47,323 nt of DNA, taken from an uncultured Spirochaetales bacterium. GTDB lineage: Bacteria > Spirochaetota > Spirochaetia > Sphaerochaetales > Sphaerochaetaceae. This document shows positions 23,286-27,268 of this stretch, piece by piece (position 1 is the stretch's first letter; every line of letters begins with the position of its first letter). The position numbers and the translations under genes are program-made. The DNA is taken from contig CASFDA010000010.1 in assembly GCA_949293335.1 (NCBI GenBank), positions 66,567 to 113,889 of the forward strand. Reading direction: 5' to 3'. The notes below the pieces were generated by a model. The model saw only the letters and a list, made by a program, of their open reading frames with translations. It searched no databases and had not been told where the DNA came from.

Positions 23286-23930
23286 ATGACAGTTGAATAT
23301 AGAATGACGCTCAATCCGGTGACGATCAATCCGGAAGCAAGTGTTGTAGAGGCTTCTACTCTGATGAAGAAGGAGAAGGTGCATCGCCTTCCTGTCCTCG
23401 ACAGCGACAAGAAACTTGTGGGGGTTATTTCAGAGAAGGACATTCTTTTTGCAACTCCTTCTCCTGCTTCAAGCCTTTCGATACATGAGATGGCATACCT
23501 TCTTGCGAAGCTCACAGTAGGATCTCTGATGACAAAAGATCCCGTGACAATCACAAAGGATGTTCCAGTGGAGGAGGCTGCTAGGATCATGGTTGATCAG
23601 GATCTTTCCTGCCTTCCTGTAGTGGATGATGGCACTCTTGTAGGAATTGTCTCCAAGAGTGATCTTTTCAAGATCCTCATCGAGCTTTTCGGAGCACGGA
23701 GCATGGGTGTTAGGGTAACGTTCTACCTCGACGAGAAGAAAGGTCAGATTTCGAATATTTCGAAAGCCCTTTCCGAGAACGATCTCGATATTATTGCTTT
23801 CGGGACTTTCATGGGAACAAACCCATCAAACAGGCTTTGTACGATGAAGGTTGACTCAACAGACATGGAAAAAGTCCTCTCTATTCTGAAGCCTTTCGTG
23901 AAATCGATCGAGGACATCAGGGTTTCTTGA
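23286..23930 (+). CDS. CBS-pair protein with C-terminal ACT-like domain (AcuB-like)
   Basis: A 214-residue soluble regulator-type protein. CBS repeat 1 spans about residues 1-60 (RMTLNPVTINPEASVVEA, LVGVISEKDI) and repeat 2 about 77-132 (LMTKDPVTITKDVPVEEA, LVGIVSKSDL). Together they form a Bateman module that usually binds adenine nucleotides. Residues 140-214 resemble an ACT domain (RVTFYLDEKKGQISNISKAL), which usually binds amino acids. AcuB-like proteins share this layout. It lies 57 bases after livF with its own GGAGGAAG ribosome binding site, so it may be the last gene of the liv operon. A role in sensing imported branched-chain amino acids is inference. Confidence 0.8.
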   Translation: MTVEYRMTLNPVTINPEASVVEASTLMKKEKVHRLPVLDSDKKLVGVISEKDILFATPSPASSLSIHEMAYLLAKLTVGSLMTKDPVTITKDVPVEEAARIMVDQDLSCLPVVDDGTLVGIVSKSDLFKILIELFGARSMGVRVTFYLDEKKGQISNISKALSENDLDIIAFGTFMGTNPSNRLCTMKVDSTDMEKVLSILKPFVKSIEDIRVS

Positions 23931-23937
23931 ATTTTAT

Positions 23938-24151
23938 CAAAAAATATCGAGAAGACTCCATATCTCTATAGAATGGAGATGAATCGTATGGTATACCTCA
24001 ATTAGTTGCTTGCAGGGCAGGAAAATCTCTGCACGTATGTGTGACGCATATGTACTCCGGTGGAGCTAACGTAAGACTTGAGTAGGTTTTCCTGAGAAAG
24101 CAGCTGGCGCTGAAGCCGGAAGCCCGCTCTTCTTAAGTGTGGGTAGTTCAC
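23938..24151 (+). ncRNA. Orphan omega-RNA/HEARO-like RNA or IS200/IS605-type non-autonomous element
   Basis: A gene-free stretch of about 214 bases, densely folded when read on the plus strand. Elements in order: a hairpin CTCCAT/ATGGAG (23956-23978); an 11-bp long-range stem CAGGAAAATCT/AGGTTTTCCTG (24018-24028 with 24084-24094); within it a 9-bp hairpin with TGA loop (24033-24053) and CTCC-GGT-GGAG (24055-24065); then CTGGC/GCCGG (24104-24119); and a terminal hairpin CCCGC...GTGGG (24123-24143) followed by TAGTTCAC. The ending GAAGCCC-hairpin-GGGTAGTTCAC is what I recall for right ends of IS200/IS605 elements, and hence for TnpB/IscB guide-RNA scaffolds. No tnpA, tnpB or iscB is present. 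The left boundary is a guess: TTTAT at 23933-23937. The RNA would read straight into the rarA 3' end. Confidence 0.55.
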
Positions 24152-26364
24152 TTCGTGATTTGATGGACGCGCTTCCATTCATTTTGGGAGGGCGTTTTTT
24201 TCTTTTTCAGGCCGCTGTTTGTCCCTTTTATGACTGCTATTTCGCTTCTCCAGTCGACTTCTCGGTCTGCAAGCGATGAGATGAATGCATCTTTGAATTT
24301 CTCATCCACGAACTTCGAGTAGCTTCTCTCCCACCAGGATCTGACGCTCTCTTTTGAGAGGTACCTCTTTTCCATGCTCTTTTCTATCCTGATGCTTACA
24401 GATTCGAAGTGACTTGCAATCAAGTTTTCAAGATCTGTCTCATCCCAGCGAGAAAGAGGATTGTCCGAATAGATCCTCTCCTCGGCTTTCTTCAGCTCAG
24501 CAGAAATCTCGCCATCAGTGAGTTCAGATAGCCGCGTGCTCTTTTTTGGGATTGTCTCAAGGAGCAGAAGCTTGCCATCCTTTTCAAGGTGTCTCTTGAT
24601 CTCTGAAAGGAGTTTCCCGCTCTTTTCCAGACGAGTGAGGACGTTTTTTCCTGTGATTACTGAAAAATACAGATCATCATCTATTTCGGAAAAGGCCTTC
24701 TCGTCACTTTCTGATATGATCACTTCCGGCTTTTCAACTTCCTCGAACTCCCTTGCAAAGTGTTCTATGACCTCCTTGTCCTCCTTATTACGTACAAAAG
24801 CCATGGAGAGCCCTTCCGGATTCAGGCGCATCAGCGGCCAGAGGAGAAGACCTCTTGATGCATTGAGCGTAAGTGTGTTCGAGTATCTCTTGATCTCAAG
24901 GTCTGACAAGAGTTCTGATCTGAGTCTTCTCATCAGAGCGCTCTTTTCTCCCATAGCACGCTCGATCCAGATCTCCTTCTCCCTGTTTTTCGGAGAGTGC
25001 GTCAGTTCTTCTTCCCATTCGTCCTCTGTCACAGATTCAAGCTGTACTTCCCTTTTTTCAAGTACCTTGTCCCTGATTGTCTTCTCATACCCCTGACTGG
25101 ATGGAATATAGAAGACCTTTCCCTGCAGTCCGGTCGGCAGATATTGCTGGCTTACCCAGTGGTCTCGGTATGCGTGGGGATACAGGTACCCTTCCCCGTG
25201 TCCGAATCCCTCTTTGTCCCTGCTTGCATCCTTCAGGTGGTTCGGGACATCTCCATCTTTTTCCTCCTCGAGGCTCTTGAGCGCATCGAAGAAGGCCATC
25301 GAGGAGTTGCTCTTTTCGCATGTTGCGAGATATAGGGCGGCAAGAGCGAGGTGATAGCGTCCTTCAGGAAGTCCTACGCGGTCGAATGCTGCAGCTGCAC
25401 TCTCGACGTACGTAAGTGCAAAAGGGTCGGCAAGTCCGACATCCTCGCAGGCAAGTATCAGCATGCGCCGGAATATGAAGCGGGGATCTTCGCCAGCTTT
25501 TACCATCCTGCTGAGCCAGTACATGGATGCATCGGGATCAGAACCGCGCAGGCTTTTGATGAATGCGCTTATGACATCGAAGTGGTAATCACCCTCCTTG
25601 TCATACAGTACAGCTTTCTGCTGTATCGACTCTTCGGCGATTTCACGTGTGATGTGTATTACCTCACCATCTTTCGGAGGAAAGTTTTCGCCGGTTGTCT
25701 CAACAGCAAGTTCCAGGGCGTTCAATAGTGATCTGGCATCTCCTGCGGAGACCTCGATCAGATGTTTTTTCGCATCATCATCGATCACCACATTGTATTT
25801 TCCATAACCCCTTTCTTTGTCGGAAAGGGCATCTGAGAGAATCCTTTCAAGATCTTTCTCTTCCAGTTTCCTGAGCTGGAATATCCTTGAGCGGGAGACG
25901 AGAGCGGCATTCACTTCAAAGTAGGGGTTCTCTGTTGTTGCCCCGATGAGTATCACAGTTCCGTTCTCCACCCATGGCAGCAGCGCATCCTGCTGTCTCT
26001 TGTTCCACCTGTGCACCTCATCAATGAAAAGGATTGTCTTCTTCCCATACAAGTCGAGCCTTTCCTTAGCATCATGAATTTCCGCATCAAGCTCCTTTAG
26101 TCCTGCAAGGACAGCATTCATTGTGGAGAAATGACTTTTTGTAGTGTTTGCAATGACGCGGGCAAGTGTTGTTTTCCCTGTTCCAGGAGGACCGTAGAGA
26201 ATTATCGATGAAAGCTGGTCCATCTGTATGGCTCTTCTCAGGAGTCTTCCTTTGCCGACAATGTGGTCCTGCCCGACGTATTCATCGAGCGTCCTTGGTC
26301 TCATCCGCGAAGCCAGAGGCTCTCCTGAGAGCTCTTTTTTTCTTGTACTTTCAAAAAGATCCAT
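24148..26364 (-). CDS. rarA: RarA (MgsA) AAA+ ATPase fused to a C-terminal domain of unknown function
   Basis: A 738-residue protein. Residues 1-420 are a RarA/WHIP-type clamp-loader-like AAA+ ATPase acting at stalled replication forks: RMRPRTLDEYVGQDH at 20-34, Walker A GPPGTGKTT at 58-66, Walker B ILFIDEVHRW at 111-120, sensor GATTENPYF, and the C-terminal tetramerisation region with YPHAYRDHWVSQQYLP. Residues 430-738 are an extra domain with short Rossmann-like pieces (LYFSVITGKNVLTRL, DGKLLLLETIPKKS) suggesting a degenerate methyltransferase. Spirochaetes commonly carry this fusion. The last residues (KRVHQITK) and the stop codon lie at the boundary of an omega-RNA-like element whose terminal TTCAC supplies the TGA. 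The start overlaps the upstream lipoprotein stop by one base. Confidence 0.9.
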   Translation of the reverse strand: MDLFESTRKKELSGEPLASRMRPRTLDEYVGQDHIVGKGRLLRRAIQMDQLSSIILYGPPGTGKTTLARVIANTTKSHFSTMNAVLAGLKELDAEIHDAKERLDLYGKKTILFIDEVHRWNKRQQDALLPWVENGTVILIGATTENPYFEVNAALVSRSRIFQLRKLEEKDLERILSDALSDKERGYGKYNVVIDDDAKKHLIEVSAGDARSLLNALELAVETTGENFPPKDGEVIHITREIAEESIQQKAVLYDKEGDYHFDVISAFIKSLRGSDPDASMYWLSRMVKAGEDPRFIFRRMLILACEDVGLADPFALTYVESAAAAFDRVGLPEGRYHLALAALYLATCEKSNSSMAFFDALKSLEEEKDGDVPNHLKDASRDKEGFGHGEGYLYPHAYRDHWVSQQYLPTGLQGKVFYIPSSQGYEKTIRDKVLEKREVQLESVTEDEWEEELTHSPKNREKEIWIERAMGEKSALMRRLRSELLSDLEIKRYSNTLTLNASRGLLLWPLMRLNPEGLSMAFVRNKEDKEVIEHFAREFEEVEKPEVIISESDEKAFSEIDDDLYFSVITGKNVLTRLEKSGKLLSEIKRHLEKDGKLLLLETIPKKSTRLSELTDGEISAELKKAEERIYSDNPLSRWDETDLENLIASHFESVSIRIEKSMEKRYLSKESVRSWWERSYSKFVDEKFKDAFISSLADREVDWRSEIAVIKGTNSGLKKKKTPSQNEWKRVHQITK

Positions 26365-27068
26365 CAGCTGTAATCCTCCCAGAATACGCTATAGGGAGAG
26401 TCCTTGTCTTCTAGCGGTGCATTCTTCAGCATTGTCTCTGCGCTTATAAGGAGGTCAAATATCCTTTTGAACAGGAAATTGATCAGTTCGTCTTTTTCTA
26501 TTCCCTTTGCTTCGGCAAGAGTTGTCCCGTATCCTGATAGGGAGAGGTTGTCGTAGTTCCTTTTCACGATCCCGAGCTCGAGGAGGAAAGATGATAATGC
26601 CTCCTCACTCTTTTCTTTGTTCTTTTCGTAGCTGTCATTGAGCACAGAGAGGACGTAAGGGCCTCTGATGCGCTCATATTCCCTTGCGATCGAATTATCT
26701 GAAGAGACGAATACAACAGGGTTTGTCATGACAAATGCGCTGTCTGATCCGATTGCACTGAACGCATCGGAGAGCATGACATTTGCCAGATCCTCTACGC
26801 ATTTTACATATTCACTTTCCATTCTGTCATAAAGAGGCAGATATGCGCCATACGCTTTTGTGTCATCGCTCAGGAGAAGGAGCACTTCGTCAGAAGAGAG
26901 GGGAGAGTTGTCCTCAGCAATCTTGAATGCATCCTGCTGAAGTATCGAAACAGCCTCTTCGATTCTCTTGAACTGCTCGTCATCAAGCACTCTTGTCCGC
27001 TTTTCACTGCTCATGCAGGAGGTGATCAACAAAAGCGTGATGAGAAGAAATAAAAACTTCCTGCCCAT
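26364..27068 (-). CDS. Predicted lipoprotein of unknown function
   Basis: From the ATG at 27068 this is a 234-residue lipoprotein: signal peptide MGRKFLFLLITLLLITSC with the lipobox ITSC (Cys18). The frame is open 12 codons further upstream, but that would bury the signal peptide. The mature part is helical and acidic (LLLELGIVKRNYDNL) with no motif I know. The gene ends on the first base of rarA's start codon (TGATG), so it is probably the first gene of a two-gene operon. Why a surface or periplasmic lipoprotein would be coupled to a replication-fork ATPase is unclear. Confidence 0.8.
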   Translation of the reverse strand: MGRKFLFLLITLLLITSCMSSEKRTRVLDDEQFKRIEEAVSILQQDAFKIAEDNSPLSSDEVLLLLSDDTKAYGAYLPLYDRMESEYVKCVEDLANVMLSDAFSAIGSDSAFVMTNPVVFVSSDNSIAREYERIRGPYVLSVLNDSYEKNKEKSEEALSSFLLELGIVKRNYDNLSLSGYGTTLAEAKGIEKDELINFLFKRIFDLLISAETMLKNAPLEDKDSPYSVFWEDYS

Positions 27069-27268
27069 ACTGAAAATATAATCGAGTGTCTCAAAGTAAT
27101 GCAAGGTTGGAAAGCTTTCAGGAAGGGGAGGGGAATCAGCTCCTTTGCTCTATTCGTGAATTCCATGAACCTGATGTGTAGATAGTGGAAAGTTTTCCTG
27201 TTCTCCGGCAGCCTCGTTTTGCCTTTGTTCTGATTTGTGTTATATTCACTATAAGGTAGGAGAATTAA

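Follow-up and report, generated by a model that had tools for sequence, protein, structure and literature searches.

A protein-less IS200/IS605-derived mini-element with a complete tnpB-type guide-RNA scaffold in an uncultured Spirochaetales bacterium

In the window, by which we mean the whole 47,323-nt stretch of DNA analysed here, the 214 bp from 23938 to 24151 are almost certainly a mini-element derived from a tnpB-bearing element of the IS200/IS605 type, with a complete omega-RNA scaffold. The family to which this copy belongs probably consists of mobile, protein-less elements of ~180–220 bp from which the tnpB frame of an IS200/IS605-type element has been deleted; this grading is a joint one, in which the observations are weighed together with the conditional steps of the trans mechanism proposed below. 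What appears to be new, within the open-licence literature searched, is a diversified lineage of such minis that retains the whole guide-RNA gene, apparently under selection as judged from sequence comparison. More tentatively, we propose that the minis might be SINE-like, self-propagating guide-RNA genes that would parasitise TnpA for movement and TnpB for attack on empty sites.

A mobile mini-element between a CBS-domain gene and rarA

The element lies in the 3' untranslated region and on the strand of the upstream CBS-domain gene (23286..23930, +), and its far end reaches into the rarA-family AAA ATPase gene (PRK13341 family; 24148..26364, minus strand). Comparison of copies and empty sites places its first base, a C, at 23938 and its last, the final C of GTAGTTCAC, at 24151, so that the boundaries proposed in the first-pass annotation proved exact to the base; its description as gene-free was likewise borne out, as no ORF of at least 60 aa is found within the 214 bp on either strand, and a transposase gene would not fit into this length. 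Immediately outside the element stands TTTAT (23933..23937, +), a target or transposon-adjacent motif, which precedes most of the 62 distinct left ends (exactly in 38, with TCTAT and TTTAC as variants) in flanks that are otherwise unrelated.

Three empty or restored sites indicate that insertion takes place directly 3' of this short fixed motif, precisely and without target duplication. The empty CBS-rarA junction in G001 aligns gap-free with the joined flanks of the window copy, G018 has the empty form of an insertion found ahead of a CBS gene in G025, and a mini within an ATPase gene in G067 (G067:C13:916-1057, L204; ..VIIDEIQRVPELL..) splits a frame that joining the flanks at TTTAT|CCTGAA restores exactly, from which we take this last insertion to be recent. 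In the window, insertion replaced the final Thr codon and the stop of rarA, both of which persist in G001 (natural end ..ITKT*), and the right end of the element, TTCAC, now gives the gene its TGA stop (24148-24150, minus strand). The earlier description of the element as welded to rarA is therefore literally correct, although the junction appears to be incidental.

The element is also not alone in its genome. A sequence search of G000, the genome to which the window belongs (1.92 Mb, 35 contigs), returned full copies of the 214-bp element on contigs C33 (96%) and C13 (97–98%, with an internal duplication), to which a covariance-model search added a diverged mini at C13:261077. Further minis are present in the congeners G028, G067, G063, G025, G009 and G004, the named congeners being MAGs labelled uncultured Spirochaetaceae bacterium. 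Minis of G000 and of these six share a common anatomy, namely TTTAT, left hairpin, tnpB –10, complete scaffold and a right hairpin ending in GTAGTTCAC, and the family occupies several unrelated loci. Because the 214-bp unit recurs elsewhere in the genome and in congeners, its presence at 23938-24151 is beyond chance. Covariance model R1, which describes the scaffold, has 13 matches in G000 and matches in 35 of 48 congeners. The first-pass annotation had called the element an orphan and suggested looking in the same genome for further copies and for tnpA or tnpB; both searches were productive, the first as just described and the second by revealing two tnpA frames, both intact, and numerous copies of tnpB, whole or fragmentary, and the epithet has to be dropped. 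A search for phage or plasmid carriage of the mini-element gave no match.

Two further minis lie ahead of CBS genes, in G025 (G025:C36:23803-24020, L024), just before the ribosome-binding site, and in G004 (G004:C39:6578-6692, L026), with the window mini behind a homologous gene. Three insertions beside one gene family are odd and probably a coincidence; we rejected a common CBS association because the G025 and G004 minis were inserted separately, on the opposite side of the gene, and the G018 site is empty. Behind rarA, 26364-27104 of the window (minus strand) encodes a 246-aa protein with a lipoprotein-like start (LLLITSCMSS) and no Pfam or NCBIfam match.

Derivation from a tnpB-bearing element

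Both ends of the mini point to its parentage. The left-end subterminal hairpin, CTCCAT..ATGGAG (23956..23978, +), a putative TnpA recognition hairpin, resembles hairpins at the left ends of tnpB-bearing elements (G009 C58, G000 C8 and others), and the subterminal palindromes at the two ends are related to those of tnpB elements. In G009 C58 and G001 C21, left and right ends homologous to those of the mini surround a 449-aa TnpB (PF01385, PF07282; NCBIfam guided_TnpB above cut-off), in agreement with the IS200/IS605-type right end that had been recognised at the outset. The last 142 nt of the mini in the window (24010..24151, +), matched by model R1, align with the last tnpB codons plus right end of these elements, the region where the TnpB omega-RNA (reRNA) is encoded. 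Together with the conserved structure described below, this homology identifies the segment as a TnpB-type guide-RNA scaffold, as the first-pass annotation had suspected, made of the former tnpB 3' end and the right end.

The distance between left hairpin and scaffold is bimodal, 14–17 nt in the minis versus about 1,210–1,260 nt in tnpB-bearing elements. A few independent deletions are intermediate (90–305 nt), and in each of these the right end survives together with at least most of the scaffold. One such case is a second tnpB element in G000 (G000:C5:66538-66865; L121:739-1066), shortened independently to a left end, ~90 nt, a complete scaffold and a right end.

In the minis, TATGnTATAAT comes very soon after the left hairpin, and the scaffold comes next. 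The –10 box, read from an alignment of 12 minis and from tnpB upstream sequences, is TATAAT in 7/12 and TATACT in 3/12, with TATGG or TATGn just before it, and is TATACC in the window copy (23992..23997, +). By position and sequence it is homologous to the –10 ahead of tnpB in full elements, where the same TATGnTATAAT occurs (e.g. CTGATATGATATAATGAATTATG); the –10 of tnpB thus now sits directly on the guide-RNA scaffold.

Fold of the scaffold and its maintenance

Taken as a single sequence, 23938-24151 folds modestly better than its shuffles (z = –2.0; 7/200; opposite strand, z = –0.4), so that the case for structure rests on comparison. Of the compact multi-stem RNA originally described, a conserved multi-helix fold stands; the 11-bp long-range stem had to be given up as a conserved structure, since it is missing from the fold of the diverged minis, in which a different fold covaries. 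This fold begins with hairpins HP1 (24011..24033, +; 7 pairs) and HP2 (24034..24052, +; 6 pairs), each paired in all cells of nine distinct minis and each with two pairs altered on both sides. A multiloop with inner helices follows (24056..24120, +; 98% of cells paired), closed by TCCGGT / GCCGGA (24056-24061 with 24115-24120) and nearly invariant among tnpB-bearing elements, and then the right-end hairpin (24123..24143, +), present in the covariation-supported fold and followed by GTAGTTCAC.

Across the nine minis, standard pairs occupy 95.4% of pair cells, and pairing falls to 31–49% when the 3' partners are slid. The covariation score is 0.270 against 0.195 ± 0.017 in shuffles, none of 500 being as high, and nine pairs are altered on both sides against a shuffled mean of 4.6. 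Because the shuffle control leaves the relatedness of the minis in, and the structure was partly read from the same sequences, we give the both-sides count, and the agreement of the mini-derived structure with that from the tnpB-bearing set, more weight than the percentages. Conservation of the pairs could in part serve recognition of single-stranded DNA.

On a maximum-likelihood scaffold tree, 11 minis stand apart from every one of the 13 elements that bear tnpB or are intermediate. This split recurs in 92% of bootstrap trees (support 90/84), which we regard as moderate support. The minis differ by up to ~30%, with long internal divergence, and contain frame-breaking indels. Their separate grouping and long divergence suggest that they probably diverged after coding function had been lost, and the guide-RNA gene as a whole appears to have been under selection in this lineage. 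The window copy, which has one broken inner pair and a weakened –10, may itself be decaying, though its family is not.

Possible use in trans, and alternatives

A putative guide of ~20 nt of host DNA, TTCGTGATTTGATGGACGCG (24152..24171, +), directly follows the right end; if a guide is used, it would begin just after 24151, where it had been predicted. The five bases before it at the donor are TTCAC instead of TTTAT (two mismatches), an arrangement expected to spare the donor from attack. A guide adjoining the right end and a donor free of the motif-plus-guide target are what the sequence of a TnpB omega-RNA locus should present. A search of the genome for TTTAT plus guide as a self-target elsewhere found none, the guide matching its own flank only. 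Just past it lies an intrinsic-terminator-like hairpin with a T run (24172..24197, +), one of 2 in the scanned region versus 0.7 expected from shuffles.

Let us assume that the mini is excised in single-stranded form by a Y1 transposase (TnpA) whose gene lies elsewhere, and that the same enzyme inserts it 3' of TTTAT. At the new site, transcription of the scaffold would start at its own –10 or come from read-through; in the window copy, it might start a few bases before 24010 or enter from the CBS gene. The neighbouring host sequence would become the guide, here 24152-24171 ahead of the terminator-like hairpin. TnpB of another element would then bind the mini RNA and act on TTTAT plus guide, that is, on the empty site, which would favour retention and copying of the mini. 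As worded, with observed and conditional steps taken jointly, we find this explanation somewhat better than even; that a TnpB supplied in trans acts on empty sites with the mini RNA is, taken by itself, a possibility we raise with some reserve. The first-pass annotation had considered a minimal element moved in trans: mobility is evident from copies at unrelated loci and precise empty sites, and TnpA is the enzyme we infer.

The supply of both proteins in G000 deserves attention. None of the tnpA loci examined is flanked by mini-type ends, with at most a weak left-end-like hairpin near two of them (14.6 and 10.9 bits), and linkage of tnpA to mini ends was rejected on this ground. Searches of G000, G028 and G067 did not find the TnpB whose ends match best (the G009 C58 type, with a 91% identical counterpart in G001); the TnpBs of these three are ~60% identical to it, and the G000 assembly contains no single complete frame of its clade. 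Many G000 contig ends (among C5, C8, C9, C12, C13, C21, C25, C28 and C33) stop inside copies of one tnpB gene, which makes tnpB copy number and integrity unreadable from this assembly. All TnpBs of the clade that we read (L017:1301-2650, L127:759-2093 and other loci) have a Q aligned with the RuvC-II glutamate, with QDE or QDD in place of the canonical ED and thus an E or D two residues on; cleavage is therefore uncertain, and nuclease activity should not be assumed.

Palindrome-associated transposable elements (PATEs) were described in Haloquadratum walsbyi (PMC3119063), and by the definition published there 23938-24151 is a PATE. As described in this and a second account (PMC7290912), PATEs resemble the minis in being gene-free, in having near-terminal palindromes, a short target motif, no terminal inverted repeats and no target duplication, and in their IS605-type origin through core deletion. 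An unlikely though serious alternative is thus that the mini is a plain PATE, a dead-end or TnpA-mobilised deletion derivative with the omega-RNA segment as passenger, retained solely through overlap with the right end or for the help that its fold as single-stranded DNA gives to TnpA. PATEs are known IS605 derivatives, a single PATE-like copy in Halanaerobium hydrogeniformans likewise retains the right end and 58 nt of tnpB (PMC7290912), the window copy is mutated in –10 and fold, and the best-matching TnpB is missing from the genome. However, the right-end hairpin accounts for the last ~35 nt only, leaving ~110 nt of upstream scaffold with compensatory pairs across highly diverged minis, and the –10 keeps a fixed place. 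Moreover, terminal-only PATEs of 52 bp exist in Haloquadratum (PMC3119063), which suggests that elements of this sort can exist without a scaffold.

If the TnpB clade is nuclease-impaired, as QDE or QDD at RuvC-II in every member seen might imply, the RNA could instead guide binding or repression without cleavage, or titrate TnpB as a decoy. We consider this improbable, since the acidic residue two positions on could substitute and the tnpB elements are multicopy and mobile, in keeping with an active nuclease. Still less probable is the domesticated guide RNA raised in the first-pass annotation, or a regulatory RNA, serving the CBS/rarA locus: the rarA stop supplied by the element and the minis ahead of CBS genes in G025 and G004 would fit, but the orthologous G001 site is empty, no element follows the CBS genes of the other congeners examined, members of the family occupy unrelated loci, and the guide matches only its own flank. 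The suggested kinship with HEARO, that is, an IscB omega-RNA, and with it 6S, a riboswitch or any other Rfam family, we regard as negligible in spite of a superficially similar right end; the Rfam scan gave no match at gathering thresholds and only chance-level ones at E<=10, and the parent gene is tnpB, not iscB.

We therefore return to trans use of the scaffold by TnpB. Unlike PATEs as portrayed in the available parts of PMC3119063 and PMC7290912, which cover ends and deletions and not a conserved guide-RNA gene, the minis keep the whole omega-RNA scaffold and a –10 box, and across their diversified, non-coding lineage the fold is upheld by compensatory changes. With IS200/IS605 and IS1341-type tnpB-only elements (e.g. 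ISDra2) they share homologous ends, target-adjacent motif, guide position and a scaffold made of tnpB 3' end plus right end; they differ in having no tnpB frame, so that the nuclease would be needed in trans. Standalone, trans-acting omega-RNAs were reportedly proposed for IscB by Altae-Tran in 2021. Those too are guide-RNA loci without a nuclease gene beside them, but the minis are TnpB-type and form a discrete mobile element whose ends and empty sites are mapped. Our searches of the open-licence literature turned up no account of a protein-less element carrying a TnpB guide RNA.

TnpB is thought to prevent loss of IS605 elements by cutting the empty donor site. A plasmid gene-drive version of such TnpB-based retention has been described (PMC11870625). 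If protein-less elements exploit TnpB in trans, homing would become a shared genomic resource, and non-autonomous copies could spread to their parents' cost; if the SINE-like reading is true, every insertion would write a new guide and drive its own retention in trans. The mini family also offers a natural test for selection on a guide RNA apart from its nuclease gene, since the minis are free of the coding constraint by which omega-RNA evolution is usually confounded.

Two copies in G000 have features of their own. In the C13 mini (G000:C13:274859-275139; L018:2860-3140), which adjoins a tRNA gene, 62 bp of the HP1/HP2 region are internally duplicated in tandem. The C33 mini (G000:C33:100488-100645; L019, about 2489-2646) lies within the T run of a terminator, and the stretch before this terminator is partly conserved in congeners (..GGTTGCCGCTGGAATCCAGCGGTTTTTTTAT), possibly as a non-coding RNA or leader.
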